Part shown: one piece after another, positions 7,823-43,395 of the stretch
Layout of the letters: every line of letters starts with the position of its first letter
Position numbering within the stretch: position 1 is the first letter of the stretch
Assembly (NCBI GenBank): GCA_950295325.1
Contig: OX485803.1
Location: 59,225,554 to 59,289,553 of the forward strand
DNA: 64,000 nucleotides
Direction: 5' to 3'
Source: Polytrichum commune
Lineage: Eukaryota; Streptophyta; Polytrichopsida; Polytrichales; Polytrichaceae
The notes under the pieces: model-generated
The model's input: the letters and a program-made list of their open reading frames with translations, nothing else
Told to the model about the DNA's origin: nothing
Database searches by the model: none
Program-made: the position numbers and the translations under genes

Positions 7823-8525
7823 GGGGGTGGGGTCAAGAATAAAGTCAGATACTATTTGGGAACTATACCACAGTTATTCTCTATCCAACATTGCTTTATG
7901 ATGTTTAACCTAATAAACTTAGGTGAAGTATTGTCACTGTGTATTATTAGATTGTAACAGCTGATAGCAGTTGCATAATGTTATGCCCAAAAACATTTAT
8001 CAAAATCCAATGCAATTGTGCACAAATCCCTACAAATTGAATGGCAACTTTCTTTGGAGTGATATAAATCAACACTATCATGACATAAGCATGCCTCATT
8101 TGGTCACTTCTCTTACAGAATCCTAACTTGATTTGTGTGCACTTAGGTCTGGATTCGAGAGAACAAACACCCAAAAGACACATGTTTATAAAATATTGGA
8201 CCAATACTTGGCATCGGTGAAAGCTAATGACAATGTCCAATATTCACAAAAACTAAGTCCAGTGGCACTAGTCATGTACAGTAGCCTTTCCTTGGAGTTT
8301 GTAAGGACCTACATAATTTCCTCCACATTTGGTTGTATGGGTCAATTCCCACATTCGCGGTATGTATTCTACTACTTTGTCAAATAAAGAATGACTCGAG
8401 ACCATTGTTTTGGGGTCCTCCTTGTAGATGTATCTTTGATGCTTGGAAACCCTACCGAAGTTCTTCCTTAAAGTAGTATTGATGTCGGGACATGTATGAT
8501 TCAACTTATTTGCAATTTCTCAAAA

Positions 8526-8554
8526 TAACACTATATTTGTTAAATTGAGACTTT
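8526..8554 (+). repeat. 29-bp motif with an inverted partner at 26534-26562
   Basis: TAACACTATATTTGTTAAAT followed by TGAGACTTT is matched in reverse complement at 26534-26562 with one mismatch in 29. The two copies face each other across 18 kb that contain the ParB-like gene, all recognisable palindromes and the DUF7869-type gene. This may be a terminal or sub-terminal repeat of a large element, or two unrelated insertions of one family. Confidence 0.6.
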
Positions 8555-8683
8555 TTGGGCATTTTGAGACATTCACAGAAATAAGAACAAGGATAAATGG
8601 AACACATATTGGAGAAAGTTGTAAGATGCGAACACTTTGAAGCGGGTGTTTAGAACAAGAACCCCATTAATAACTCATATTTG

Positions 8684-8960
8684 GGATTGTTTAGGGCGGG
8701 CAATCCAAACCTTAGGCCAAGTTGAAGGGGAAATCTTAAAACATTCATATTATCGCACAAAAACTTGTATGAATATGGTTTAGGTAGGGCAATCCAAACC
8801 ATAGATCATATTGAAGGGGAAATATGTGAACCAATATAATATAACATACAAAATATTCCAAACTCATATTTGTGATGGTTTAGGTAGGGCAATCCAAACC
8901 TTAGACCATATGGAAGGGGAAATCATGTGACACTTATATTATTGCAAAAAAAAACATACA
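8684..8960 (+). repeat. About 100-bp tandem repeat, three copies, with decayed palindrome core
   Basis: Each copy contains tttaggtagggcaatccaaa followed by a variant of ttagaccatatggaagggga. The core resembles the TTTGGGTC-N4-GACCCAAA palindromes found further on; the sequence at 19119 (tttaggtaggacgacccaaa then cattagactatg) is intermediate between the two. I therefore read these as decayed members of the palindrome family, lying just past the 3' end of the ParB-like gene. Confidence 0.6.
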
Positions 8961-9065
8961 AAGTGTGGCATGTAAAATGCATAGCATGCTAACACCACAC
9001 ATCCATTGGATAGTGCGACCCAAAATGTTCTTGCCTATGGCCCAAAACCCTACGCCTACTATGGC

Positions 9066-9862
9066 CTATCTAGCCTCGGAGACTACCTCTTTTTCTTTTG
9101 CTTCATTTTTTTTTGTTTTTTTTTGTTTTGCCTCTTTTTCTTTTGCTGCGGCTTCTTTTGCTCGCATTGCTTCAACATTCCTGAAAATCTCCGCCCCGCG
9201 ACTATAGCCATTCTTGGGGTGACCGCCATCAATAACACATTTTGGATTCCGTCGGCCGCCCGAATTATACGACGAAGAATTCGAATACGATGAAGTGGAC
9301 TGTCTTGCATTTTTGGTCATGGAGTAGAAACGCTCCAACTCGACGGACGCACTAGCCCGCATAGGTTTACGGGTGGGAGCAACCTGCAACGCGTCAATGC
9401 AAGACCACATGTGTTAGTTTAGGGAGGAAGACCCAAACGTGTCACACGTTCATTTTTTTAGAGCAAAATGATTGTAACGCGCGGTTAACCATGTGTGGGG
9501 GGGTTCACCTTGTCACCGGGGCCATTTGCGTCGGAGTTGGCGAGGAGGGGCAAGGCGTCCCGCAAAGGAATAGGAAGGGTTCCACTCTTCGTAGGCCGAG
9601 CGTCTATCCGCAGCCGCCGTTGAGGTGTAATACTGCCGCCGGGCCGAGAGGGGGACGTCTGGACGCATTTGCGATTTATGCCCTTGAGCGGCGACGGGGA
9701 CGGAGAATGCCGGAAGATTTGCTTGGGTGGGGGGCTATCGACGACGCCGGCGTCAAGAGGCTCCTTGGAGTAGTCGATGGTGGAAGCGGCATCGTAGACG
9801 GTCTCGTAGAAGAAGCTCCCCAAGTTTGATTCGCTGACGATCTCAATCGAGGGCTCCAAACG
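9066..9862 (-). CDS. Two 3' exons: disordered region and lysine/glutamate-rich tail
   Basis: Exon 9509-9862 begins after a pyrimidine tract and tag and reads RLEPSIEIVSESNLGSFFYE; it ends GPGDK before gtgaac. Exon 9066-9383 starts after ttgcag with VAPTRKPMRA and ends in an alternating K/E/A tail (KEKEAKQKKTKKNEAKEKE). Both junctions are phase 0 and the frame runs on across the intron, so these belong to one transcript, most simply as the 3' end of the NIF phosphatase gene just upstream. No catalytic domain is recognisable; the tail looks like a charged helix or nuclear signal. The link to the preceding exon is uncertain because no phase-0 donor is visible before that frame's stop. Confidence 0.55.
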
Positions 9863-9973
9863 CTAGCGCAAAAAAGGAAACAAAACAAAACCCAAGGGGA
9901 GGGGGGAGCATGTGAAAATCGATATACAATTGAGGCATAATATATCACACACAATGGCACACCATGTAGTATC

Positions 9974-10786
9974 TCAAATGAATTTATTATATTTCGCGTG
10001 AGCGTACAACTCTCTATACATATAGTCCTTCGGATCCATGTATCTTTCGCCTATCGGATTACAACTAAGGAACCGGGGCACGGGTAGTCCGCTCCCCACG
10101 AGCGTTTGGATGTACTTAAGTAGGTCTAACAAAAAGCGGTCTCGGACCTTCTCGACCGTCCACGTGGGGCAAACTATGAAGTTCGAGGTTGGGTTCAAAA
10201 TGTTTTTGGAAGCGTTGTCGTCCACCATCAACATGTTGTCACGGGTGGGGCGAACGTCGTAGGGACAGCCGACCATGGTCGGACGCTGGTCCCATACGAC
10301 AGGCTTCAAGACCTTAAGAAATTGGTTTACGGCGGGGTTGTTGGGCTTCTTCACAACCCTGCCCTCAGGGGTGTATAATGTTTTACAAGAATCCTGTCCT
10401 AGGACCAAGCACGGGGGTTGGAGTCCCTTGAAGATGAACTCCACGACGGCCTGGGTATTCTCGGACTTCATGGAGCTCCAAATGATCACCCACCATTTGG
10501 ATAGGGCGACCTGTAGGAAGCGCCGAAGCCACGGGCGGAGGTACACTAGCTTGCTTTTGATGTACGCGGGGGGTCCATCGTAGTTGGCATCCTCGGGCTT
10601 GCAGAAAGGTACCGTGGGGACCCTCGGACAATGCACGCACTGGACAAGGACCCCGTTGAGGTCTAGCACCAGGAACCGGGTCTTGGGAGGCGAAGGTGGC
10701 GAGGGCAAAATCGGGGGGACCAGCACGCTGTCCTCCACACTCCTCGGGGAGGATCGGTGGGGAGCCGCGACGCTATGCTCCGGACC
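9974..10786 (-). CDS. FCP1/NIF (CTD-phosphatase-like, HAD superfamily) module
   Basis: After a splice acceptor (pyrimidine-rich tract, gccgcag) the frame reads GPEHSVAAPHRSSPRS and then, from 10738, 254 residues ending at a stop at 9974-9976. There is no ATG at the beginning, consistent with an internal exon. HAD motif I is FLVLDLNGVLVQ, the thiol/serine motif is VIIWSSM, and motif III is MLMVDDNASKN, as in plant NLI-interacting-factor phosphatases. The second acidic residue of DxDxT is Asn here, a change I recall in a plant NIF subgroup and one expected to weaken or alter phosphatase chemistry. The upstream exon (11279-12763) ends in phase 0, so the module may be the C-terminal part of the ParB-like gene. 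Otherwise it is a separate gene lacking a visible start. Confidence 0.75.
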   Translation of the reverse strand, partial: GPEHSVAAPHRSSPRSVEDSVLVPPILPSPPSPPKTRFLVLDLNGVLVQCVHCPRVPTVPFCKPEDANYDGPPAYIKSKLVYLRPWLRRFLQVALSKWWVIIWSSMKSENTQAVVEFIFKGLQPPCLVLGQDSCKTLYTPEGRVVKKPNNPAVNQFLKVLKPVVWDQRPTMVGCPYDVRPTRDNMLMVDDNASKNILNPTSNFIVCPTWTVEKVRDRFLLDLLKYIQTLVGSGLPVPRFLSCNPIGERYMDPKDYMYRELYAHAKYNKFI

Positions 10787-11236
10787 CTGCGGCGACGAGC
10801 GAGAGAAGGCGGCGAGGACTATGTTATGCTATGTCCATCTCAAGCAGAACGGAAATTTTGTGCAAACACAAGAAGAATTGGACCATTGGTGGCAACAAAA
10901 ACATACAAGGGGAACAACATACATTGGGACACGGATGCAAACATATGGGCGCCAAAAATAATAATTTTATTTTTACAAATCTCTATGTACAATTTGATGG
11001 GGGGGGGGGGGGACCGCGGTGAACGAGGGCATTCACACTATCCTAATTCTACATCCACAAAATTGGTTGCGCGCCGCCAAGGTCGAGCGTAGTCGAATGC
11101 AGACGAGACGAAGGGGATCGCGGGGGGGGCACGTTGGGGGGAGGGGGAGCAAGTGTAGAGCAGGGGGGGCAGGGGGTGTGCATTTCCTCCTAGCAAGGGG
11201 GACATGACCACGCCAACAAGACAGTGACCCAGGAAG

Positions 11237-11256
11237 TTTGGGTCGGTCGATCCAAA
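11237..11256. repeat. Palindrome family copy, intron 3
   Basis: TTTGGGTCGGTCGATCCAAA lies within the proposed intron between 11279 and 10786. It has one mismatch from full symmetry in the right arm. Confidence 0.85.
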
Positions 11257-11278
11257 CTGGGAGGGCTCAGTGTATTAC

Positions 11279-12763
11279 CTCGCCCTGGTCATGTCTCGAC
11301 GATGTGGAAGCCTCCACCGTCCCCGCTGCCCCGCCTCTCTCGCCACCGCCTTCTCCGACGACGTCAAGAACCTTCTCCTGCAAACGATCGGCATCAGGCC
11401 CTTGTCCTAAACCAATCTCCGCATGTGCATCATGCATGGGTTCATCGATTTGGTTAGGAGTAGAGGTATCACTAGGCCCTTGCAGGCCTTCAACATCTAG
11501 CATGGCCGTGTCTAGTTGACACCCATGTTGGTCAAGGGAGGACTGCGCTGCAACGGGGTTTGGGTCGCCCGACCCAAACTGTCCTGCATCTGGAGAGGGC
11601 CCTTCGGACACTACAGTGGATGGTGGGTTTGGGTCGGTCGACCCAAACATCCTGGGGTCGTCCGATTGGTGGGGGGGCGCCATGACTATGGGGGGCCGAC
11701 GTGGTGGAGGGCCCAAAGGGGAGGAGGCTCCAAAGACGCGCCAGATGTTGGGGTCATCCACTTGCTGGACCGGCGCGTACGGAACTTGGTGGGGCCGAAT
11801 CAAGTGCTGGAAGCTGAAAGACGATTGCGGCAAAGGCTGTTGAGGGATGCTCTGCGCAGGGAAGCCGGGGGGCAAGTGCGGGAAGGAGCTGGAGGGAGCC
11901 ACCACCAAACCTTGCGCCCACATTCCTTGTATCACTTGTGATATCAAGTCGGCGTGGGACGGAGGTTGGGCCATTGCCCTTTGACGCTCCTGCTCCAACA
12001 GGAGAGCCCTCAGCTCTGCGACCTCGTTCCGCATTGAGGGTTCTTCCGCGGCAGCCTTCTGCAGGCGGACTCGCTGCTCCTCGTCCCTCCTCATCTTCTC
12101 GTTCGCCTCCTCCACAGTCAGGACCTCGGGCTTCACCCTAACTATGCCAGCGAACGCTGTCGGGGACGGGGGATCTGATCTTAGCCGTTTGGCGAGCTCA
12201 ATGTCATCGTTGTCCTCGCTGCTTATGGCAATGGTCTCCTCCACGGAGTAGTCGCCATACAGCTTCTTCCCCTTTAACTTCCTCCTCTCCCTGAACGTGG
12301 CGGTGGCGTCCCTGGAGTACATGTCACGTGCATCGTCCACCGTCAGGACGGGCACCAGCTTACTCTGCGGGGTTGCCGCCCGCATCGCCTTCTTCCGTTG
12401 AGGGGCTTCGGATTCTTGCGTGAAGCCCGTTGCCCCTTCCTCCACGTCGCCTTCCTTCTCCGCCTCCTCGTGCTCCTCTTCTTCCTCCTCCTCCTCGACC
12501 TCGCCACCTTCTGTGCGGGACGGATTGCCCGGATGCAACCCGACCAGAGGTTCGGGTACTTGGGTTGTGGCCCTCATGGCCATTTCTTCCGGGTTGATCC
12601 GCCTCGCCCTATCAAGAGGGTTTTCGCCCCCCTGAACAACCTCGTCGACGTAGCTACCCGGGATCCAATCGAGGATGTCCATCTTCTTCGCCAGCGATCT
12701 CTGCGTCCTGTAAAATGGCAGATCGCCATCCTCTATGTAGGAGTATATACTCAGCCCCGACAT
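11279..12763 (-). CDS. Disordered, coiled-coil linker exon of the ParB-like gene, with in-frame palindromes
   Basis: This open exon of 495 codons has acceptor gattgtgcag before MSGLSIYSYIEDGDLPFY and a donor after GQGE, both phase 0. The first 40 residues continue the methyltransferase-like fold of the previous exon (IEDGDLPFYRTQRSLAKKM). The rest is low complexity: an acidic E-run, a basic/charged coiled-coil stretch (VEEANEKMRRDEEQRVRLQK onwards), then a Pro/Gln-rich tail. Two 20-bp palindromes (11559-11578, 11628-11647) lie inside the exon, in frame, and are translated as FGSGDPN and FGSTDPN. The exon has no internal stop although its upstream neighbours do. Confidence 0.6.
11559..11578. 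repeat. Palindrome family copy inside coding sequence
   Basis: TTTGGGTCGCCCGACCCAAA, with perfect 8-bp arms, in frame within the linker exon (encodes FGSGDPN on the minus strand). Confidence 0.9.
11628..11647. repeat. Palindrome family copy inside coding sequence
   Basis: TTTGGGTCGGTCGACCCAAA, with perfect 8-bp arms, in frame within the linker exon (encodes FGSTDPN on the minus strand), 69 bp from the previous copy, that is 23 codons. Confidence 0.9.
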
Positions 12764-12834
12764 CTGCACAATCCAAGTTATATAGACATTAGAATTATGC
12801 GAGGGACATAAACAAGACCAAAAACAATATCTAG

Positions 12835-12890
12835 TTTGGGTCGATCGACCCAAACCAACAAAGACCCTAGTTTGGGTCGATCGACCCAAA
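12835..12890. repeat. Two perfect 20-bp palindromes in intron 2
   Basis: TTTGGGTCGATCGACCCAAA occurs at 12835-12854 and 12871-12890, 36 bp apart, within the 156-bp intron 12764-12919. Both copies are fully self-complementary. Confidence 0.95.
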
Positions 12891-12919
12891 CTGCACACGA
12901 GCTATAGAAAATCACTTAC

Positions 12920-14251
12920 CATGGCAGCATAGATAGGTTTCGAGCCTCTGAAGACGTTGAAGATGCAGTCCCCTTTCCTCGTCAGCGTCCTCATCATTCT
13001 CACGTAAAATTCCATACGCAGCTCATCTGCGGGATAGTTCGCGTATTTAGCCTCGTCGTAGAGGCACTTGTTGGCACCCAACCCTTCTGGAACTTAGAAG
13101 AGTTTGTCCATCCGGGATATAGGGTGGTTCGGCACCTTCAGCAACTCCGCTTTATACACGAAGTACAAACACAAGACATTGACGAACTTGGTCTTCTTGT
13201 CCCTCAACGTTGTGTAAGCCCCCTCCGCCGGTGCGGCGATGTAGTGAGACCTGGAGACTACATACTCCGGCTGCAGTTTCCGGACAAGCTCGTACACCTG
13301 CTCCGCCCTCCTATCCTCGACTATCCAAAGCCAGATATCTACCTCCCTGAACTTAGGGCTTGCATAATCGACGAACTTAGACAGGAAGGGGTCGTAGAAG
13401 AGGGTGCTCATCGTGCCCTCAAATGAGCTTCCAGGAATATTCATGAAATCAATCATCCCAAAAGGAAAGCGGTCCCTTGCTTTCGTCCTTATCGCCATTC
13501 TGGCGTCTTGACCTGGCCAACCTTGAATTTTCAAAGGGTCGACGGTGACAAGGTTGAAGTACGCTTCCCCTTCAAACTGGACAATCTTTTTCTCCTTGAT
13601 GAAGTTCGAGAACGCACGCGCTGTGTGATCCGGAAGCGCCCGGTTCTTCCCACCCTTCACCATTTTGGCCCGCAAGAAGTCGTCCCCCGCTTCCCTTATT
13701 AGAGCCGTCATGGAGGCACTGGTGAACTTATATTCAGCTTTGAATGATCTCCAGTTAACCTCATGAACCTCGCCGTCCACGACAATATTCCTCTCTGGCA
13801 CCAATTTATGCAGCTCCTGTACGATAGTCGTCTTCTTTTTCCTGTTGTCCGTCCATTCCTTCATGGTGTAGCATGAAGGAACGAAGGATTTTGGTTTTTG
13901 GAAGACAATCTTCGGGTGCACCCAGCACCTCTTCGCCGTGGGTGCCACGTGCAGGATGTGCGATGCCGCTTTCTCCACCTCCGTCTCTGACAACCCTTGA
14001 AGAGTTCTAAAAAACTCTCTCACGAGAGGCTTCATCTGCTTGAAGCGCGAGGTTTGGCTGAAATAAATGCCAGTGTCGGGATCCATCAAATCCCCCGTCT
14101 CGTGCTTTTCAAACACGGTTTTTCACTTCTTCCAAACTGAGTCCGATGCTGTAATCAAGTAAATCTCCCCCTTGAGGTCGCTGTATTTCTTCTGCTTGTG
14201 GCTCGAATTATCAATGGAGGGGAATTTGTTGATCATTTGGTATTTGAAATC
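12920..14251 (-). pseudogene. Methyltransferase-like exon of the ParB-like gene
   Basis: The acceptor at 14252 precedes DFKYQMINKFPS and the donor after YAAM is gtaagt; both junctions are phase 0. The frame is open apart from a TGA at 14123-14125 and a TAA at 13094-13096, after which similar-quality coding sequence resumes (VPEGLGANKCLYDEAKYANY), so the exon is damaged or a pseudogene. The C-terminal block RTLTRKGDCIFNVFRGSKPI followed by YAAM resembles the FxGxG region of beta-class DNA methyltransferases, with GMIDFMNIPG upstream where a DPPY-type motif would fall. Both motifs are degenerate, so catalysis is doubtful and the family call is my inference. Confidence 0.5.
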
Positions 14252-14342
14252 CTGGACGTGAACAAAACATAACATTTGAATGCGTGTTAGATATGTACAT
14301 GTGATTTTCAAACCATATCATGACCAACATCTGCAACAAGAG

Positions 14343-14598
14343 TTTGGGTCGATCGACCCAAACTAAAAAACACAAGACTACAACAATTGTTTGGGTCGAT
14401 CGACCCAAACTAAAAAAACACAAGACTGCAACAATTGTTTGGGTCGATCGACCCAAACTAAAAAAACACAAGACTGTAACAATTGTTTGGGTCGATCGAC
14501 CCAAACTAGAAAACACAAGACTGCAACAATTGTTTGGGTCGAGCGACCCAAACTAGATAAACAAGGCTGCACCAGGTGTTTGGGTTGGTCGACCCAAA
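14343..14598. repeat. Six palindromes at 46-48 bp period in intron 1
   Basis: Copies start at 14343, 14390, 14438, 14486, 14533 and 14579. The first four have the perfect core TCGATCGA, the fifth TCGAGCGA and the sixth a G-T change in one arm. The unit is the 20-bp palindrome plus about 27 bp reading taaaaaacacaagactgcaa then caattg. The whole array lies within intron 14252-14608. Confidence 0.95.
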
Positions 14599-14608
14599 CA
14601 GTACTCAC

Positions 14609-15803
14609 CTCCCACTTGGGATTCTTGTCCTTCGCATTCTCCCTCTCCTTGGGAGGCCTACCATAGAACTCCCACACCTCCTGCGAGGCCATGATATTCC
14701 TTATCCAGGACGCTTGGTAGGCCCTCTTCTTGTTTCCCATATTGAAGTACCGGGAGATGTCACTGAGTTTGGTCTCATCGTCAAACCACACCACCAGTGC
14801 CTTCCAAACCTTCAGGTTCTCCTTCTGATTGTTGGGATCATCCCACTCATTCATGAGTTGGATTTTCTTGGATGCCTCCACGCTGTGCTGGCCGTCTATG
14901 AGCCAAAAATCGCCCTTCTGAATTGTTGGCCACATTTCAGGTGTAGTCATTTTCTTGAGACCCTGTGGCATCACTACAATCGTTTGCCTGTCGTCTTTAA
15001 ACTGCTCGCAAACGATTTGCGCGATTATCCAGTCAACGTAGGCGTCCTCCTTTGCCCGGACACACTTCGCCGGGCTTCGGCATGCGCAACTCCGGTGATA
15101 CTGGCTCGTCAATCATCACAGAGGACTCTCCCGCCCGCTTGGATGGAGATGTTTGACGGCTCCCAGAAGGTGTAGGCGTCTCGCTATCCGTCGGTGTTTG
15201 TGAGGGAGTGGTCCTCCGCGAGTCAGCCGGTACTGGTCGCGGCTTCCTCACCGATTGAGGTCTTGACGACCCTGCACCTTCCTCTGTTGTAGCTTTCCGC
15301 CTCACGGGTTGCTGAGACTTGGTTTTGCTCTGCAGGGCTTTGTTGAGCACGCTGATTGCATGCTTTAGTTTCGTGAATCGGCTCGACACCTTTGTGTTCG
15401 ATGTACTGTTATCGATGAATATGGACTCCGGTTTGATGACGTCTGGTTCTACACATGTTTCTTTTGCATAGATAGCGTCAAAGGGTTCGGAGAACTGGTG
15501 CATAAACATATGCGCGTTCTGGACAGCGTTGTTCTCGAGGATGACATCCACGTAGTCTCCAAGAGACTGAACCAATGCCACCTCCCACCCCGTAAGAGGA
15601 GCCCATGTGTGCTTCTCCACGGTCCCAACCTTCACAACAAAAATCATTTTGTATTGCGAACCCTTAACCACTTGGATAGACCACGCGACGACAAACCCGT
15701 CCTTAGGAATGTAGGAGTTATCTTCCGGTGTTTCGTGCTCTTGCCATATCATGTCTGGCGCAAGCATGAACCACCTTTCACCTGGTCGTTTCTTTGGGGC
15801 CAT
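14609..15803 (-). pseudogene. ParB/sulfiredoxin-like N-terminal exon
   Basis: The ATG at 15803 (MAPKKRPGERWFML) directly follows a splice acceptor (ccttgcag), implying a leader intron. After a Ser/Pro/Thr-rich linker the exon encodes GDFWLIDGQHSVEASKKIQL, the hallmark DGQHxxxA helix of ParB-type nuclease/CTPase domains, here with Ser in place of the usual Arg. Next comes a helical block (VWKALVVWFDDETKLSDISR then YFNMGNKKRAYQ) of the kind seen after that domain. The exon ends WE before gtgagt. The reading frame shifts by one base between about 15112 and 15040, so either the gene is broken or a base is wrong in the assembly. Eukaryotic ParB-like proteins are rare and I do not know the function of this one. 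Confidence 0.55.
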
Positions 15804-15830
15804 CTGCAAGGAATGAAGCCCCAATGTTAG

Positions 15831-15850
15831 TTTCGATCGGTCGACCCAAA
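15831..15850. repeat. Palindrome family copy in the leader intron
   Basis: TTTCGATCGGTCGACCCAAA, with a one-base mismatch in the left arm, just upstream of the ParB-like exon. Confidence 0.85.
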
Positions 15851-16047
15851 CTTCTTCAAACTGAATAGAAGTTACGTGATGTAATTGAAATGTAATAGAT
15901 TGCCGCATGTATTTTGTTGGTTTGTGTATTGTTATATGTGAACATCATTTAATGGTGATATTGTATTTTTATTTTTGGGTGGACTTGCATTTTATATTGT
16001 ATCTAACATCATAGATTGTTTGATGGGTTTATAATTAGAAGACTGTG

Positions 16048-16366
16048 TTTGGGTCGAGCGACCCAAACATTAGCCCTTGTTTGCGTCCAGCGACCCAAGA
16101 ATGAGAGGACCCTAGTTTGTATTGTTATATGTGAACATCATTTGTATGCTGACATCGGATTATTTAGTTTTGGGTGGATTTGTATTTTATATTGTATCTA
16201 ACATCATGGATTTCTTTATGAGTTTAGGGTTTAGAAGACTGTGTTTGGGTCAAGCGACCCAAACATCAGCCTTTGTTTGGGTGGAGGGTTTCAAACGTCT
16301 GCCTTTGTTTTGATCGAGCGACCCAAACATTAGCCTTTGTTTGGGTCGTCTCCCCAAAGTGTTTTT
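16048..16366. repeat. Four to six palindrome copies upstream of the ParB-like gene
   Basis: Clear copies are at 16048-16067 (core TCGAGCGA), 16080-16099 (decayed), 16244-16263 (TCAAGCGA) and 16308-16327; weaker ones lie near 16276 and 16340. Most are followed by a form of cattagcctttg. About 190 bp around the copies at 16048 and 16244 is itself a direct duplication (shared tttgtattttatattgtatc, then taacatcat). Confidence 0.85.
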
Positions 16367-16519
16367 TATTAATATATTTTAAAAGTTTGCACGTAGCATA
16401 AACAATGCTTATGCGTTGTGTATGCTACAACACTAAGAGACCAGAAACATAACACAATACCTTTGAAATTTGCACTGCAAACACTTTGGAGTAGATGATG
16501 TCTCTTTCCAATAACCTTC

Positions 16520-16757
16520 AATAACAACTCTGGAATCTCTGAAACAACTATTCAATCTCAAACAACTCTGGAATCCCTCAAACAACTCTTCAATCTCTCA
16601 AACAACTCTTCAATCTCACAAACAACTCTGAAATCTCTCAAACAAATACTGGATCTCTCAAAAGACTTCTGAATCTCTCAAACGACTTCTAAATGTCTCA
16701 AGCAACTCGTGAATCTATCACAAAATTACAGAATCGCTCAAACGACTTTGAAATCTT
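16520..16757. repeat. About 20-bp tandem repeat (caaacaactcttgaatctct)
   Basis: Roughly ten imperfect units of caaacaactcttcaatctct-like sequence run head to tail; a related acaacactcttgaacactct tract follows at 16835-16895. No gene is apparent here. It lies upstream of the ParB-like gene on its strand and could be leader sequence or a plain minisatellite. Confidence 0.75.
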
Positions 16758-16899
16758 TTGCACTACACAAGAACTCCTGATACTCACAAGCACAATTTCA
16801 ACCTCCTACACGATGTTCTCCTAACTTCTTGCCACACTCTTCAACACTCAACAACACTCTTGAACACTCTTGAACAACACTCTTGAAAACTCCTCTACT

Positions 16900-17840
16900 A
16901 AGTTCCTTTACCCTCACGCACTAAACCTTTCCTCCGCAAGTTTCTGTGTTTTTCAAGACTCTTCCTAAAACCTAAGATTGGATAAGAGTTATGCAAGAGC
17001 AAAAGCAAAAGCAAGAGCAAAAAGAGAAATAATGAAGAAGAAGCAGAATGGTGGGAATACCGCGCCTGAATCGCCGCGGTGCTTCGCGAAAGCGGCGCTT
17101 CAGGAGAGGCGGCGCTTCCAAGCGAGGCGCGGAGGGAATGCTTGGCGCGGAGAGAGAGAGAAAGAATTCGAAAAGGTGACATTTGGGGTTTTGTTCACCT
17201 CGGGAATTGGCCCCACCCCCGCCAATAGGCGGCCCACAGGATTAGGGTATCCACGTAATTAGGATTTCGGGGAACCCTAAATCCTAAAGCCTAACTCTAA
17301 ACCCTTAGCGGGTATTACTTATTTCAATGAACTAAGGTGCTACATGAAATATACTAAGGTGCGGTGCCAAGGCATTCTTGCAACAAAACTTTATGCCAAA
17401 GCTTATACTTAACCCCTACTTACATGACACCATACACTAAACTTTCCAAACACGTTGAAGTCGTTGGTTTCTCTTTTGTTTGAGCAGGTTAGAAAAATAA
17501 TACAATTGCATTGTCGGGTAGAGAGGGTTCCGCCTTGGGAAAGCGCTGGGCTTCTGGCTGCAACTAGATTTTATCGGACCCGTCGAATCTTCTGATCTTC
17601 AATCGAATCTTCCGGTCTTCTAGTCTTCAATTTCTTCTAATCTTCAACCTCTTTCCCGTCGACCTATCCTGTTGCGGCTCTATATGGATAAAGGGTAAGG
17701 GTAGTGTGATAAGAAACCACGGGCTTCGGACGGGTAAAACGGGACGTCAGAACACGAGCTGACGTCCGAAAGATTGGCTCCTAAACTTTCAAACCCACGG
17801 TGACCAGCAATCGCGCCTCACCAGTGGGAACGACAGAAAA
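16900..17840. other. Stretch without a recognisable gene
   Basis: This contains a GC-richer patch (17050-17170) and pyrimidine-rich sequence around 17580-17650. I see no splice-supported coding sequence. Confidence 0.5.
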
Positions 17841-19950
17841 CAACCTTGTGGTTGATTAATCCCACTTCGTTGTCACAAACAACCTTGTGGGTCATTAATC
17901 CCACTTCGTTGTCACACAGGAAACAAATTACGATGCAGAAATGAAATGCAACTAGCCTCCAAAACCGGCTTGGAATCACACACACAAGAAAAAAAACAAC
18001 GTGCCACAAGCAACCACACATTCGAGTCTTGAAGCCTTCAATTCTTTAATCTGTCCGTCTTCTATGGTCGGTCGAAGTCTCAGCTCTTCTTTTAAGAACC
18101 AACAGACTTCCCTCCACTCAAACAAGCACAAATCTTGATTGCTAACTTCCAAAACAACAAGTGAGATCTCTCATGAATCACAAATCCCTCGTATTTTATT
18201 TCATATTCTTCTCAAAACAACTCACACCGTGAGCTTCGAATCCACTTCTCTCTCTCTACAACTTCTCTCCCACAATAATCACACCCTCTTTCCTTCACCA
18301 CCTCTCCCTATCCATGCGAGAGACAAAGTTCTCTCTTATCCTCATCACATGGCTTCTAATCACCCATTGGTCCAAAGTAACTCAAGATAACTAAAAGACA
18401 AAAATAAACTATGAGTAAATAAAAAGGTAATCTATTTCTATCATTTGGTAAAGGTAACTAAAAGTAACTATGAGTAAACATAAAGGTAAGCAACTTCTAT
18501 CCACTTCTATCCTTAGGTAATGATAACTAAAATAAACTATGAGTAAATAAAAAAAGTAATCTACTTCTATTCTTTATTATTTTTCTCCAAGACCAAGACT
18601 CACAATGCAATATTAAATACGTGCACATCTATATAGTGTACGTATTTACATCACGACAGCGTGACATATAACGATGTAATCATTGACATTTAGACTTTCC
18701 CAATGATGCCAACAACTATGCCTTTCACCACGTTTGAAGGCCAAGGATTAACCAACTGTTTTTTAAAGCGTTGATTATAAGTTATGAAAGGTTGCTAAAA
18801 TTCAAATGAGTTTAAGGGTGAAAGTCCTCACCATCTTCTGATTCAACCTCTACTCTTCCTGCAAGATATAGCCTAAAGATATGTACTTAGGCCAACTAAT
18901 TTCCCAATTTGAAGAAGGATGAATGGCTAAAATCCTCTCTTTTAAAAAATTTGTAGGTAAAATTTCCTACATGTTTTTTATCACATACTAGGTTGATATC
19001 CTATGCTCTTAAATTGTGCATAGGCTCTTTGTCCTACACTCTCAAAATTTTATAGGCTAAGTCTCTTATTTTTTAGGCTGCATTTGTATTAATCACTATA
19101 TTCGTTAATCTGGGATGGTTTAGGTAGGACGACCCAAACATTAGACTATGTTGTTGTGGTCCTGCTTTAAAATTGGTTCTAAGCCCTTGAAATAATTGGA
19201 TGACTTTATGGTTATATTCTCAAACCTAAGTTTGATCCAAGACTTCATGTATAACTCTACTATGATGTATAAAATGCCCCCCACCCCCACCTCGCACCCC
19301 ACCAAAGCTTTTGTACAAGTTTCTCAAGTTTTCAATCCCTTGTGCTTGTGATCATTTCCTAATCCACTAGACTATTTTCTCTAATTAGTGTGGCATAACA
19401 TTCGGAGTTACACATTTCTATAACATTTAATAGAAAGTATTTTTTCATCCAAATAACATAAGTAGGTAGTATGCACACGAAAAATTATGATATGACTTAG
19501 TTCGTAAAAAACGATAATGTCGGTAAAAAGTTATAGCAAGACATAATTCTGAAGTGCACAAGTGCACCTCTCGTTCATCCAACATAAAGCCCTTAAATAG
19601 TATGTAACTTAAAGGCTATTCAACATAAAGCCCTTAAATAGTATGTAACTTGAAGTATTCAACATAAAGCCCTTAAATAGTATGTACCTTGAACTCTGGA
19701 GTACACTAACCTGGTGCTACATAAAATGTGTTATTCTACTAAACTAACCATTTATATAGCCAATGCATTCTTACAACAAAACTTTGTGCTAAACGAATAC
19801 TTAACCCTTACTTACATGACACCATACCCTAAATTTTCCAAACACATTGAGGGCATTGGTTTCTCTTTTGTTCGAGCATGTTAGGAAAACCATACAATTG
19901 CGTGATATTCAACGATGTAATCATTGACATCTAGACTTTACCAATGATGC
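17345..19950. repeat. Diverged direct-repeat blocks
   Basis: Sequence at about 17345-17515 (cattcttgcaacaaaacttt, tacttacatgacaccatac, ggtttctcttttgtttgagc) recurs at about 19765-19905. A second block (cgatgtaatcattgacat, then ccaatgatgccaacaact) occurs at 18673-18718 and 19914-19960. A 39-bp unit is duplicated at 17841-17918 (caaccttgtgg, cccacttcgttgtcac), and a 39-41 bp unit (aacataaagcccttaaatag) is present three times at 19581-19695. No coding sequence is visible. Confidence 0.65.
19376..19580. repeat. Foldback MITE-like element, copy C
   Basis: ctctaattagtgtgg, cattcggagttacac and the inward-facing ttatagcaagacataattct correspond to the arms of the element at 205-422. It is more diverged, and its right end is close to the 41-bp tandem repeat. 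Confidence 0.45.
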
Positions 19951-20154
19951 CAACAACTCACACGATATTGAATGAATAAAAAAGTCTACCCACACCCCCT
20001 AACATGTGGAACAATTAGAATACTTGAGTGTGGAGCCTATTAAATGAATACATTTCCCAACTGCATTTTGTAAGGGTTTTGAAATGCATGAGCCTTATTT
20101 GAAAATGCTAACATGCTCAAGTTTTAAGTACATCCCTGATATTGTGACTTTGAT

Positions 20155-20975
20155 GAATCGCAGAGTGGCCAATAAACCATGGTTCATGATATATTTAATA
20201 TATATTAAATTGTGATAGAAGAGTAAATCGGAGAAGCAGAACATCAAATGGAGCCATTCACGCAATCATGTTGTTATACATGTTCCCTCCATGTATATTA
20301 GATGATGGCGCAAGATAAAATAGATGTTGTTTGTATATGGGGGCATCAGTGAACCACAACTACATTTGGTGTTTAGGGTTTAGGAGATAGGAGATAGGGT
20401 TATAAGATATTAATCTATCCAATGTCAATGTATAACATTGTCTTACTAGTGAGAAGAGTCTTATAGGAAGGTTATAGTAAAGACGATCTTGATTATGTTA
20501 ATTTGTTATTTGAGACGTTTAAACGCGATATATTGATTGCTCTTGTGTTTATTCAAATAACATGAAATGTTGTGGATGTTAATAGGGGTTAGGGGTGCAA
20601 CTTTAGATGTTTTGCTCACTTTAGGGAATCACATAGTCGCTAATAAACCATGGTTCATGATGTATTGAATATATGGAATGTGATGCAAAAGTTAATCGGA
20701 GAAGCACAACATGAAATGAAGCCATTCAAGCAATCATGTTGTTGTTCATTGTTCTCTTCACGTGTATTAGATAATGGAGGAAGATATAACATAGATTGTT
20801 TGCATAATATGAAGAAGAGTCTAATCGGAAGGTCATAGTAAATACAATCTTGATCATGTGAATATGCTATATGGGACGTTTAAACATGATATCCTAATTG
20901 GTTTTGTATTTAGTCAATATGTATTTCATGTTGTGGATGTTATAAGGGTTTAGGGTCCAATTTTGGATGTTTTGC
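20155..20975. repeat. Direct duplication of about 400 bp
   Basis: The blocks at about 20155-20560 and 20630-20975 share ataaaccatggttcatgat, aatcggagaagca, caatcatgttgtt, gtattagat and gggacgtttaaac-like stretches in the same order. Function unknown. Confidence 0.6.
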
Positions 20976-21891
20976 TCACACACATTAGTAAACTTGAAGT
21001 GAACTTGATGATGGATTCAAGTAACATTAAAAGATTGAACTAAAAAGGGACATTGGTAGTTAGTATCCCCTTAACAACGTCCACAACGTGTTCGTCATTC
21101 CCACACTTGCATGCGAGATAATAGAGCAATGTTCTAGGGTTTAGGGTTTAGTGGAGACAAATAAATAATTCTATTCATCATGACAATGGCCTCAAGCCTT
21201 GGAAACTCTCTCATAATTGCAGCCTCCAAATGGCCCAAACCCCACCTAAATAGGTTTACACTTGAAAGCATTGAATGGAGTTGTGTTTGGGTCTACATAT
21301 TGGTTAAAATATGCCGTGATGATACTTGAAAAAATTAATGTGGCCGCCACCCTTCCTCCCAATGGCGTATGTCATATCCACACAAAACAAAAAAATAGAT
21401 TAAATAATATAGACTAAGTCATATGACGGCTGGGGTATCAAAGGGGCATTCATAGATGCGCATTTTTCTACTATAAACAGAAAACGGGGAATGCTGTCAG
21501 GAGGTTTGAAATAACCTTTGCAAGAGAAGAAGGCGGGGAAGGCATCCAATGACAAAGTCTGGGAAGCGGAGGTGGATAGTATAAAGGGGCACGCCCCCCA
21601 GAAGTTGGTCATTTTTTTCTCTTCTCCCGCTGCCGAATTCGTAGAGAGAACTCTTAGTAGGAGCTGTACTTCAAGGTTCGTGCATGCTGCCGTTCATGAG
21701 CACTTATCCACAGCATGCAAGTTCATGAGCACCTACCCACAGCATGCAAGCCCACCGTGAAGTTTGCAATGAGCTCAAATTCACCACACCACGCAATATC
21801 CGCCGCATTATACGCCGGATTTTGTGGTGTACTTGGGCGAACCTTCACCTTTCCACTAGTGTTGGCGGGTTTTGAATCTGACCCTATGAGG

Positions 21892-22760
21892 TTTGGGTCG
21901 ACCGACCCAAACCTGTCCACTAGTGTGTAAGGGTTTATGTATGACCCTTAACAGGTTTGGGTCGGTCGACCCAAATCCCAACCCCAGTGTGTTAGGGTTT
22001 TTTTCTGACCCTTATGAGATTTGGGTCGACCGACCCAAACCCCTACCTGGTGTGGGTGGATGTACCCTTCTGAGGTTTGGGTCGGTTGACCCAAACCCCT
22101 ACCCCAGTGTGTTCAATTTTTTTTTATCCTTATGAGGTTTGGGTCGACCGACCCAAACCCCTACCTGGTGTGGGTGGATGTACCCTTATGAGGTTTGGGT
22201 CGGTCGACCCAAACCCCTACCCCAGTGTGTTCAATTTTTTTTTTGACCCTTATGAGGTTTGGGTCGACCGACCCAAACCCCTACTTGGTGTGGGTGGATG
22301 TACCCTTGTGAGGTTTGGGTCGGTCGACCCAAACCCCTACCCCAGTGTGTTCAATTTTTTTTGACCCTTATGAGGTTTGGGTCGACCGACCCAAACCCCT
22401 ACCCCTGTGTGGGTGGATGTACCCTTATGAGGTTTGGGTCGGTCGACCCAAACCCCTACCCCAGTGTGTTCAATTCTTTTTACCCTTATGAGGTTTGGCT
22501 CGACCGACCCAAACCCCTACCTCGTGTGGGTGGATGTATCCTTATGAGGTTTGGGTCGGTCGACCCAAACCCCTACCCCAGTGTTTTCAATTTTTTTTGA
22601 CCCTTATGAGGTTTGGGTCGGTCGACCCAAACCCCTACCCCAGTGTGTTAGGGGTTCTGTCTCGACCCTTGTGTGGTTTGGGTCGGTCGACCCAAACCCC
22701 TACCCCAGTGTGTTAGGGTTTCAGTATGACCCTTATGAGGTTTGGGCCGGTCGACCCAAA
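21892..22760. repeat. Array of 15 palindromes with alternating core orientation
   Basis: The 20-bp units start at 21892, 21956, 22020, 22076, 22138, 22194, 22258, 22314, 22376, 22433, 22494, 22550, 22612, 22677 and 22741. From the first to the twelfth the centre alternates between TCGACCGA and TCGGTCGA (the copy at 22076 has TCGGTTGA), that is, the unit is flipped each time; the last three all have the TCGGTCGA-type centre. In the middle of the array the spacing alternates between 56-57 and 61-64 bp, giving a dimer of about 118-120 bp. The intervening sequence is conserved (cccctaccccagtgtgttca; gtgtgggtggatgtaccctt). The array ends 200 bp before the DUF7869-type frame. Confidence 0.95.
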
Positions 22761-22961
22761 CGCCCACCAAAATATTTTTTGGAACTTTTTTTGGACTTGC
22801 GCACAATGTTGGGAGTTCACAGTGTAGTTGTGTTGGAAATGTCTTCATCCTCGGTGTCCCCATTGATCATGGTGTCTTGCATTTTCCGATATTTGATTCT
22901 TTTTAGACCCTTACATTCTTTCCATGTGTGTTGAGGTTTCATGTGCATGTGTGTAGGTGCA

Positions 22962-25900
22962 ATGGAGGGAGTTGGTGGAAGAGGGAATTTCTTCTCTGAC
23001 GACATGGGCAACACGCAATCTACATCTGAGGATGAGCTAGACATTGTCGGGGAGGATAGTTTTGATGACAGTGCAGATGAAGGTAACTTGGGGAGTCCTT
23101 CGCCATCTGCCCTTTCTTGCCCTATTGTGGAATGTGCGGGGCTTTCACGAGCATCATGAGTGAATTTGGATGTGGTACTTGTTAATGACAATGGGGTTGC
23201 TGTGGCGGAGGGTATTTGTCGTAACACACATCCACAAGATTGCATTGATGAAAACCCCCTTGGCACCGACGACGTTGGAGTTGTTATATTGGAATCACTC
23301 GTACATTCCGAAGTGAATCCAACTCATAGGTTCTCGTTGCGAAGGTGGCCGTTGAGGAATGTGACAATTGAGGGGGTTAGCTTGCATGACCATGAGCGAC
23401 GACACATCCAAATCCAACACGAGCTCCAAGCACACATTAGGCCACGCAAAGGCCTACGGAAGTACGATACATTGGCACGTCCTACTCCGTCTACAAATGA
23501 GTGTAAACGTCAAAGGTTGCTATGTGAGGAGTCTATTAGAGAAGTTGCCACAAAGGATTGTTGTGTACATCGTTGTTGCCAATTGTTCCCAAGGGATAAA
23601 TTGAAGGCCATCCGCGAAGAAATGTGGCTTGGAGATTTCTGTCTCAGATCCACCAAAAAGCTTGATGTCCATAGGGCGATACATGTGAACGGAGCGGGTC
23701 GTAAGGTCATCACCCTTGAGAGCATAGACGTGTGTTGTACGGCATGGTACACCATTCACGGTGTGTCGAAAGCGGAATTTTATAGACAAGCCGCGTATGC
23801 CAAGGAAGGACGCCGGTCTCGTCACCATAGGAATACGGGCTTGAAGAAACCAAGGGAAGCAACGAAACAAGCAACAGCCACTCTGGCAACCATCATTGTC
23901 CCCCTTGCCGATGCAATGCCGCACAAAACACGCACACTCGCAACCGGTGAAAAGGTTGTGGAGAAGGTTCTTCCTACAGGCACGAAATGGAAAGACATAT
24001 TGTTGGACGTAAACGCAGTTGGCGAGAAGGCTGGGTTGGACCCTATTTCGTTGTCGAAACTGAGTGCAATAAAAAAATCGAACTTTAGCGAATACATCAC
24101 AAAAAGACGAGGCGACAAATTTGCCCGTTGTTCCAAATGCGAGAAGTTGAAACGCCTTCGAGATGCACACACGATGGGGACAGAGTCCTATGCAGCACAT
24201 CAAATGAACTATTTCAAGCATGTGAACATGCAAGAAACACACCGTAATGATTACTACACAAATAGAGTTTTATCCATCTCTAGGCCTTTGTAGGTCCTTA
24301 CAATCATCCATGATAAAATGGACCATGCCAAAACAGCCTCACCATGTTTTGCAAATCGAATAAAAGCCACGGACGGCCTTTTTAAGCTTCCTGTATCGGT
24401 TACAGGTGATTTTGATAACAATTGCATTGCATTACCTAAACACAAATTTGTGCTTTTAGGTTTGTACTTGGGGCCATAGATGTACACCATGTGAATTTTT
24501 TGGTGTTATAGTTGAATATTAAACCATTGGGGTGGCTTTGCAGTAATGATTGCACATGGGCATGGTGATGTCAAGTATGCTCATTATGCTCTTGATTTGT
24601 ATCCGGCGGATTCAAACCACACGATAGGGTCATTTGCAAAGCTTTTATGTGATTTGGAGAAACCGCCGTCCTATTCATCAAAATTGTTATTTGAAAACTC
24701 GGGATCAACACCTCTATATGAAGCGGTCTTGGATGGAAGAGATGTATGCGTGCACTCCTTGCCGGAGCCACCAAGTGAAGATGTGATTGCCAAGAATTTG
24801 CCCCCAACTTTGCGTGTCCAGTTGGACAATTGTGCGAAGGACAATAAAAGTAGATATGTTTTTGCCTATTGGTCGTTGTTGGTTGCGAAAGGCATTTTCA
24901 AGGAGGTTTTTGTGTCCTTTCTATTGGTAGGCCACACGCACGATGATATCGATGCATCTTTTGGGCGGTGGAGCATGAAGTTGCGCGAGGAGGATTTTCC
25001 AACAATCCCATTGTTGATGAAGTCGTACATGTATTTGGAGAACATTCCCGTCATCCCCCATATGATCGAGGAGGTTCCAGACTTCAAGGCATTTATAGAA
25101 CCGTATATTCGAAGCGGAGCTCACCGATTGATCAGGCATACGAAGACACAACAATTTCGGTTCTACGTGCGTGACGATGGTGTCCCCGCCATGCAATACA
25201 AGTTGTTGTGCACATCACAAGACTGGAGCCCACCGGAGGGTCTCCTTGTATGGCGTGTTGATGGGGAAGGAAGGACGATGTTGCCTGACGGAGAGCTTAA
25301 GCCTTGCAAACCAATACCCATGAAGAATTTGGAGGACATTTGTAAAGGCATATCAGGCTTCATACAATATTGGGAGAGTTTGAGGGTAGCGGATGTTGGT
25401 GGATCGTGTTGGCTTCGTTACGGAAGTTGGATACAATATTGGACACGTGTTCGTGGCGCTTTGACAAACCTTCATCAAGATACACCCCTTACTTTAAGGC
25501 ATGGGTTTTGGCCACAAACACGTGTCAATGTACAACCTTCGGAGGCTAGTCTTTTGGGAAATGGAGAGGTTCGAGAGGAGTTTGATGTGGACGACCATTA
25601 CGTGGGGCCTGCTAGTAGTCGTCCGCCACCATCTTTCCGCATTGCAGTGGATTGTCATGAAGGTTATATGCTCATTTTGCGTCCTGGAGATGAGACATAT
25701 GCAAAGCCAGTGTGGGTGGCAAGAGCTTTGTCCAAACCAAATTTTGTAACTTCCAACCCTCATTTTCGACAAATACAAGTAGAGTACTACCGACCGACAA
25801 CACAGAATGAAGATGTTGTTCGGCATTATACAGGCTGGGATACAAACCCTAACTTTCGGTGGAAGGTGGATTCTGAGCACGGTCCATCTTGGGTAGATAC

Positions 25901-26030
25901 AGATTCCATATTCATAGCATGGAAACCACGGAAAAATCATAGTGGATCAGTGTCCATCCCTCAAAAGTACATAACTTTTGCAAAATACAACCTTGCTCGG
26001 ATCGCAGAAGAAGCAACCCACGTTGAATGA
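22962..26030 (+). pseudogene. DUF7869-type gene (possible RNase H-fold transposase), two in-frame stops
   Basis: The frame from the ATG at 22962 runs to 24405, then a 138-bp GT-AG intron (24406-24543, phase 1), then 24544-26030. The N-terminal region is acidic, followed by a basic, Cys-containing part (KDCCVHRCCQLF; CSKCEKLKRLRDAH, possibly zinc-binding). The conserved block is LTIIHDKMDHAKTASP, HGHGDVKYAHYALDLYP, VQLDNCAKDNKSRYVF, then FLLVGHTHDDIDASFGRWS. This is the signature I associate with the DUF7869 domain; the spaced Asp residues suggest an RNase H-like active site, which is inference. An in-frame TGA at 23157-23159 and TAG at 24291-24293 interrupt an otherwise well conserved frame, so the copy is probably inactive but not old. 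Confidence 0.7.
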
Positions 26031-26039
26031 GAAGTTGAG

Positions 26040-42971: not shown

Positions 42972-42980
42972 CACAGACGA

Positions 42981-43395
42981 CACAATGCTCTCACAGATAC
43001 TAATAAATGACATTGGCAGTGGCAACATTCTCGCAATGTTGAGTACTATAGCACCACAAGCCACAACTTGTTGTCCTTGTTGGGATGACACCTTCATCCC
43101 ATGAAGAAAATTGTATCCATTATCCATGTTGCCATGTCTACCACCATAGCTCAACCTCAACACAAATTTTAGAGCTAATGGTGGACACACACGACACAAT
43201 GCTCTCGCAGATACTAATAAATGACATTGGCAGTGGCAACATTCTCGCAATGTTGAGTACTATAGCACCACAAGCCACAACTCGTTGTCCTTGTTGGGAC
43301 GACACCTTCATCCCATGAAGAAAACTGTATCCATTATCCATGTTGCCATGTCTACCACCCTAGCTCCATCGAAAGCAACCACCCCCCCCCCCCCC
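42981..43395. repeat. 214-bp tandem duplication interrupted upstream by a MITE
   Basis: cacaatgctctc at 42981 recurs at 43195, and the copies (atgacattggcagtggcaac, ccaccttcatcccatgaag-like, ccatgttgccatgtctacca) are nearly identical. A partial third unit lies at 42355-42409 on the other side of the inserted MITE. A run of 17 C follows near 43382. Confidence 0.85.

Follow-up and report, generated by a model that had tools for sequence, protein, structure and literature searches.

Candidate family-specific palindromic sites that change with an accessory protein in large DNA transposons of the moss Polytrichum commune

Why does a 22-base-pair (bp) palindrome stand 31 times in a short stretch of a moss genome, in introns, in front of start codons and in coding sequence? 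The DNA concerned, called the window here, is 64,000 nucleotides of Polytrichum commune (GenBank assembly GCA_950295325.1, contig OX485803.1, positions 59,225,554 to 59,289,553 of the forward strand), and the palindromes lie in a large DNA transposon within it. This element codes for a DUF7869 protein, presumed to be its transposase, and for an accessory protein with the motif DGQH. We compared it with relatives elsewhere in the genome, and with a probability of roughly 0.55 we read the palindromes as family-specific sites of a self-encoded dimeric DNA-binding protein, most likely the accessory DGQH protein, with an anti-silencing role like that of VANC. The original prediction, made from the letters of the window, had offered a dimeric-protein site among several readings, and it is this one that we favour, as a predicted site.

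A palindrome kept inside a transposon

Five palindromes are named here by their arms: P1 is GTTTGGGTCG-NN-CGACCCAAAC, P2 is TTTACGGACG-NN-CGTCCGTAAA, P3 is TTTACGAACG-NN-CGTTCGTAAA, P4 is GGKTTCGG-NN-CCGAAMCC and P6 is GTGTCTCGG-NN-CCGAGACAC. L numbers are our labels for the loci compared, and coordinates on sequence C1 carry that prefix.

A first scan of the window, with up to three mismatches, gave 34 sites (shuffled sequence: mean 0.42, maximum 3). The P1 unit is 22 bp long, with 10-bp arms around two variable central bases and hence 20 fixed bases. Good sites, with at most two of the 20 changed, number 31 (no change in 20 sites, one in 8, two in 3); they span 11236-22761, about 11.5 kb, and all are within the one transposon. 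The original prediction had put about 31 well-preserved copies into 11.5 kb and nowhere else in the window, and had placed them in the introns, leader, flank and coding sequence of one gene and in front of a second; our count agrees. Its palindrome also stands, although not the dimensions given for it (a 20-bp unit with 8-bp arms and a 4-bp centre). The ParB-like and DUF7869-type genes with which it associated the motif are both genes of the P1-carrying element itself. A foldback unit or miniature inverted-repeat transposable element, that is, a motif moving by itself with its own duplications, was also considered and rejected: P1 is part of a larger element of 18 kb, which has its own ends and duplications.

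The 20-bp core of P1 has 9731 exact copies in the 407.8-Mb genome, against 0 for a backward-read control, and the outer G...C pair is also kept in 9231 of them. Eight 10-kb pieces of C1, one every 10 Mb, contained no P1 site at up to 4 mismatches, and a collection of prokaryote genomes held one exact matching stretch. A genome scan had been proposed for the motif; in the part of C1 examined, P1 is clustered in two transposon types and not scattered. Genome-wide, at least 182 matches to the accessory exon were listed, with 1910 first-look candidates. Protein searches listed 126-182 matches, with about 150 or fewer scored among 926-1910 first-look candidates, and copy numbers are therefore lower bounds, while a gene may be present where no hit is listed.

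The predicted constraint on the motif is borne out by copy C (C1:614-629k), which shares 78% identity with the window element across 6 kb on the accessory side. In the last exon and its tail, 59 of the 60 fixed palindrome bases are unchanged between the two, against 1148 of 1461 other positions (78.6%); within the 220 bp that surround the pair of coding sites, the figures are 40/40 and 113/168. In the introns and the intergenic space the spacers differ (between the genes, 78-bp units in C and 56-65 bp in the window) and the palindrome is identical. P1 arrays have units of 32, 36, 46-48, 56-65 and 78 bp and vary in length among copies, as might a functionless minisatellite expanded by slippage inside the transposon. 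We hold this very unlikely, because the same 22 bp recurs in arrays with differing spacers, isolated and coding sites are kept, and slippage leaves unexplained the compensated change that sister families show at homologous intron positions (see below). An ordinary satellite, whose unit and spacer evolve as one, was rejected on the same figures, namely one 22-bp sequence in units of 32-78 bp and 59/60 against 1148/1461 unchanged bases.

We next asked how the two arms decay, in 197 P1 sites with at most three changes each, from loci mostly chosen for holding P1. Both arms are intact in 142 sites, the left alone is changed in 29, the right alone in 21, and both in 5, where 4.5 would be expected under independence; one site has both members of a base pair changed, without compensation. 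The compensation between arms that had been proposed as a check is accordingly missing within the P1 family, where the arms decay independently, but is seen between families (GGACG..CGTCC against GAACG..CGTTC). These counts bear on hairpins, another reading of the original prediction; as RNA or single-stranded structures (a small-RNA source, or termination or splicing signals) they might be suggested by perfect inverted repeats in presumably transcribed regions. The lack of compensated changes within the family argues against a hairpin kept by pairing, a 2-bp loop would be poor for an RNA hairpin, and we regard hairpins as extremely unlikely.

The centre of the palindrome is non-random and seemingly family-dependent. 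In 160 P1 sites with at most one change from the first seven regions (strands pooled), it is AC in 73, AA in 30, AG in 27 and AT in 23, and rarely CC (3), GC (3) or GA (1), with CG, CA and TA at 0; AC/GT, AA/TT, AG/CT and AT thus account for 153 of the 160 window-family sites. Among the places listed, P2 has CG and CA/TG, and P4 and most of P6 have mostly GA/TC.

Palindromes and accessory proteins across families

Locus L040, one of the eight unselected pieces of C1, is a distant relative of the window element (39% identity in the DGQH exon, 37% in the next exon and 25% in the last). It has no P1 site at up to 4 changes; the same two introns that hold P1 in the window have four decayed copies of P2. 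Searched as a prediction, P2 gave 1147 exact copies genome-wide and 0 for the reversed control. In L064, a fuller copy of the L040 type, a P2 array directly precedes the DUF7869 gene, whose product shares 65 and 75% identity with the two window open reading frames (ORFs) over the parts seen. The end of the L040 element (L040:4181) differs from the window end in 2 of 26 bases. The accessory exons of L040/L064-type elements are 25-41% identical to those of the window. Between these families, transposase and ends are alike, and accessory protein and palindrome are both different.

The same is found on a finer scale (per cent classes here and below are identities to the query of each search). A class with an accessory exon 54% identical to that of L040 (L045, L046, L048) has P3 in the same introns; P3 differs from P2 by a change compensated on both arms, and has 2909 exact copies genome-wide (reversed control 0). 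The 70% class (L043, L044, L047) keeps P2, one unit being altered on both arms, and the window class keeps P1 down to 72-75% (L049, L050). The DGQH exon of L043, L045, L047 and L048 is 45-49% identical to that of the window, and at the counterpart of the 12764-12919 intron L040, L044 and L046 have other palindromes instead of P1. Like P4 and P6 below, P2 and P3 were each read off one to three elements and then counted genome-wide with reversed controls.

Replacement of the palindrome while transposase and ends stay alike speaks against sites at which the transposase cuts and joins, comparable to the subterminal repeats of CACTA elements, and so does the position of the 31 good sites, at least 2.7 kb from either end, in introns, in coding sequence and between genes. 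Degenerate P1 relatives do occur near both ends of the element, and in CACTA elements a second protein, TnpA, has many subterminal sites (as described in the cited passages of PMC2613891); with these points in its favour we still find sites for the transposase distinctly unlikely.

P1 is also carried, mostly in 32-bp units, by elements in which no similarity to the window genes could be detected (L029, L030, L031/L032). We call them the SWIM type, after a SWIM-like finger in the large gene (Pfam E 0.076, below the cut-off, with DUF6208 at E 0.064 in the same scan); to the eye they also resemble MULE elements, a likeness that we do not claim. One P1 array lies between two ORFs of the large gene, probably in an intron, and a second between the large gene and a divergent gene with the motif WDGNHR. 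A 40% relative of the latter gene (L041, L042) has P4 upstream, with 552 exact copies genome-wide (control 1). Further relatives have P6 in three of four upstream regions (in L060-L062 and not in L063), and P6 has 997 exact copies genome-wide (reversed control 0). L063 (C1:21183801-21185800) has a 158-bp tandem array with a short TCGGGCCCGA core, and the accessory gene downstream of it belongs to the SWIM type at 70% identity. A P6 array also stands between parts of P1-bearing SWIM-type elements (L031:8608 to L032:1946, C1:468608-471946), away from any listed gene of the P6 accessory class; its centre is TA in all 13 exact copies listed, and its spacing is mostly about 138 bp or multiples.

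The association of palindrome and accessory class was evaluated on C1, from the first listed places, with clusters joined at 15 kb and an own-class match sought within 10 kb (one 78-bp array contributed 17 evenly spaced positions, some of them off by 1 bp). An own-class match is listed for 6/7 clusters of P2, 4/6 of P3, 3/5 of P4 and 4/6 of P6, where 0.006-0.055 matches would be expected. Four of the six P1 clusters have a listed match of window or SWIM type; the other two are L030, a SWIM-type remnant with 95.7% identity to the SWIM element over 2984 bp, and copy C. Off-class matches within 10 kb number two, both for P6, one at a single site and one at the array in the SWIM-type region L031/L032. 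Viewed from the genes, in the part of C1 that the listings cover, the own palindrome accompanies 2/2 listed accessory matches of the window class, 5/5 of the L040 class and 4/4 of the L045 class, and lies near 3/3 of the L054 class at 93% or more. In the listed part of C1, palindrome clusters thus go with their own accessory classes.

A host DNA-binding factor (an activator, insulator or chromatin protein), with sites captured by several transposons for their expression, could account for P1 in two transposon types without detectable similarity, and the sites stand in introns and before start codons, both of them places from which host activators can work. It is nonetheless doubtful in our view: among related elements whose transposase and ends resemble each other, palindrome and accessory protein have changed jointly, and the five palindromes each go with particular accessory classes; a change with the element's own gene is not expected of host sites.

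The predicted binder and the carrier element

Between families the site varies in step with the accessory protein, not with transposase or ends, which makes the accessory protein the best candidate for the binder. We infer a dimer that would recognise two half sites of 8-10 bp around a 2-bp spacer. Each family would keep many private sites of 18-22 bp, in the accessory introns, upstream of the transposase start and between the divergent genes, and its accessory protein would mark and open only elements of its own kind, with escape from silencing as the putative result. A version modelled on bacterial ParB-parS self-recognition goes further, and we rate it as rather unlikely: the DGQH dimer would load at the palindromes of introns and leader, spread, exclude silencing factors and promote transcription through a phosphatase-like part of the element; paired change of protein and palindrome would give families private addresses, and two unrelated transposon types would have adopted the system.

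Escape from silencing might leave a trace of methylation history. The CpG observed/expected ratio is 0.47-0.59 in the background and 0.79 in the element. Between the window and its two close copies, transitions affect 160/1350 CpG and 148/1393 GpC sites; SWIM-type copies have 40/277 CpG changed against 55/313 GpC, and other repeats show a CpG excess (159/356 against 167/598). The absence of a clear excess of CpG decay is weakly consistent with copies that may have escaped methylation.

The DG-x-H motif is that of the ParB/Srx (DGQHR) superfamily. In the window type it is DGQH in 6/8 rows and DGQY in 2/8, and in the SWIM type DGNH in 7/7. An hhalign comparison of the two accessory profiles gave a probability of 2.1% over 20 columns around the motif, and homology of the two types is therefore not claimed. 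The accessory exons of the window had no significant match in Pfam, and a PDB search with the accessory protein gave no convincing relative.

Several points weigh against the family-specific, self-encoded binder proposed here. The non-coding part of the element at 16400-22900 is as CpG-poor as the background (0.58), and the CpG signal may reflect young copies, the control repeats being older. The ParB likeness comes from the DG-x-H motif together with sub-threshold matches: profile searches found no significant ParB/Srx match (best DUF1015, E 0.048 and 0.059; DUF6551, 0.058; DGQHR, 0.25), unrelated families score equally (MPN396, E 0.023; DfrA3, E 0.11), and AlphaFold models of both accessory exons were unusable, with predicted local distance difference test (pLDDT) values of 40 and 35. 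P1 is common to two element types whose accessory proteins have no secure relation. For 7 of the 24 clusters of P2, P3, P4 and P6 (1, 2, 2 and 2) there is no own-class match among the matches listed, and of the 9 accessory genes listed for the 70-87% class in the part of C1 covered, only 4 have exact P6 nearby. One of the four upstream regions of the P6 class, L063, has a tandem array without a long palindrome. A further palindrome, guessed from decayed remnants (L051, L052) and outside our main claim, gave only 6 exact copies (control 0).

The carrier is identified as a DNA transposon of about 18 kb by its inverted ends, by a 4-bp duplication proper to each copy and by differing flanks (Table 1). 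It matches two copies on the same chromosome, A (C1:2112.8-2129.8k) and B (C1:1174.9-1193.5k), at 90-98% in most long blocks and at 69-84% in some non-coding stretches. The 4-bp target duplications, found in 3/3 copies with both ends seen, are AAAT, ATAA and AAGG.

Table 1. Positions in the window of the transposon, its genes and its P1 sites
Feature	Position	Strand	Remarks
Target-site duplication AAAT, left	8523-8526		
DNA transposon carrying the P1 sites, about 18 kb	8527-26561		Sequence common to copies A and B; flanks unrelated
Left terminal inverted repeat, 28 bp	8527-8554	+	1 difference from the right repeat
Three degenerate P1 relatives near left end	8689, 8778, 8878 (8689-8899)		4 changes each
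ORF after phosphatase-like part	9485-9862	-	Within feature 9485-10828
C-terminal domain (CTD)-phosphatase-like (NIF/FCP) coding part	9974-10828	-	Pfam NIF, E 1.2e-13
P1 site just beyond accessory ORF stop	11236-11257		
Accessory gene	11267-15803	-	DGQH motif in second exon stretch; borders partly inferred
Two P1 sites in last coding exon of accessory gene	11558, 11627 (11558-11648)		
Intron with two P1 sites	12764-12919	-	Sites 36 bp apart; GT...AG borders
Intron with six P1 sites	14252-14608	-	Repeat unit 46-48 bp; GT...AG borders
Region 5' of accessory start codon	15804-16460	-	P1 sites at 15830-16328; AG border at 15804, far border uncertain
Lone P1 site between the two genes	19118-19139		2 changes; same place in A and B
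Array of 15 P1 sites upstream of transposase start codon (presumed leader)	21891-22761		Unit 56-65 bp
DUF7869 protein gene, presumed transposase	22962-26030	+	ORFs 23160-24293 and 24516-26030; Pfam DUF7869, E 4.1e-40
Right terminal inverted repeat, 28 bp	26534-26561	-	
Target-site duplication AAAT, right	26562-26565		

The accessory gene and the phosphatase-like part are divergent from the DUF7869 gene. The exon stretches of the accessory gene are about 15803-15066, 15088-14609, 14251-12920 and 12763-11267, and the region 5' of its start codon is a probable intron of the 5' untranslated region. About 120 bp present between the first two stretches in A, B and C are missing from the window copy, which also has two in-frame stops in the third stretch and another, at 23157, in the DUF7869 gene; the window copy is therefore probably not autonomous. 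The phosphatase-like region is conserved in copies A-C and has 41% identity in L040. It reads DLNGVL at the HAD/FCP signature position, where we take the expected signature to be DxDxT/V; the L040 relative has the same letters, and this part may therefore be a changed or inactive phosphatase.

The degenerate P1 relatives at the left end have 2 counterparts in copy A, 3 in B and 3 in C, and further weak relatives (4-5 changes, counting those at the left end) lie at 9417 and 26349. These imperfect relatives (GTTTAGGTAGGGCAATCCAAAC and similar) at 8689-8899 and 26349-26370 have matching places near the ends of A and B, and in C near the left end, the right end of C falling outside the sequence compared; they are possibly subterminal sites of a different protein. 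Outside the element, tandem duplications with units of 156-293 bp and no good P1 copy are found at 42972-43366, 53368-53958, 54946-55343 and 59318-59738.

Comparison with known systems

In bacterial ParB-parS, palindromic sites are clustered near the parB gene, much as the palindromes here are clustered around the gene for a protein that may be ParB-like. The differences are that there is no significant ParB match, that a Pfam scan of eight window ORFs matched nothing of ParA type, and that site, host and genetic setting are unlike. Sola-type DNA transposons make a 4-bp target duplication, as does our element in all three copies, with DUF7869 as the only named domain here; the CACTA duplication is 3 bp, against 4 bp here.

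CACTA Spm/En elements resemble ours in having a second DNA-binding protein (TnpA there, putative here) with many sites, and in that site and protein vary among elements; according to the cited passages of PMC2613891 the sites of TnpA lie subterminally and serve excision, whereas the good sites here are internal. Sola1-1_Ec32 of Ectocarpus, a giant DNA transposon of 21.5 kb, has an accessory protein on the strand opposite to the transposase (PMC12477816). That protein is ParB-like, where the ParB relation of ours is sub-threshold, and it has a DNA methyltransferase domain; in our element a CTD-phosphatase-like part is found instead, and none of the ORFs scanned matched a methyltransferase. Binding of such ParB-like proteins to the transposon that encodes them is a suggestion of the authors, who point to comparable proteins in green and red algae. 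Section 5 of their text describes no binding site, and the present elements would supply family-specific candidate sites for such proteins. Apart from PMC12477816, searches of the literature on DUF7869, on ParB-like transposon proteins of mosses and bryophytes, on Polytrichum and on palindromic anti-silencing found nothing relevant.

The closest parallel to our reading is the VANC proteins of Arabidopsis VANDAL elements, for which binding and demethylation have been demonstrated (PMC5735166, PMC10398659), whereas our sites are known from sequence. In both systems, as far as the cited passages describe VANDAL, the element codes for a transposase (presumed here) and an accessory protein, and the transposase is the more conserved of the two. 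Short multi-copy motifs, often in tandem, lie in the accessory introns and upstream of the transposase (VANDAL21, PMC5735166), and related families differ in their motif. The VANC6 motifs are shared by an unrelated element, AT9TSD1, which parallels P1 in two element types. The systems differ in that the VANC motifs are 8-9 bp long, and neither PMC5735166 nor PMC10398659 uses the word palindrome, whereas ours are palindromes of 18-22 bp; VANC, apparently unrelated to the accessory protein here, also carries DUF1985/DUF287, neither of which matched in Pfam scans of the exons and relatives here.

Self-marking of transposons by proteins that they encode is already known. What is added here is a candidate for the binding-site side, with five palindromes and 15,336 exact copies in one genome that change with the accessory protein, and coevolution of protein and site in selfish DNA becomes testable by simple binding assays. 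The comparison suggests that sequence-specific self-marking, known from Arabidopsis VANC, arose more than once.

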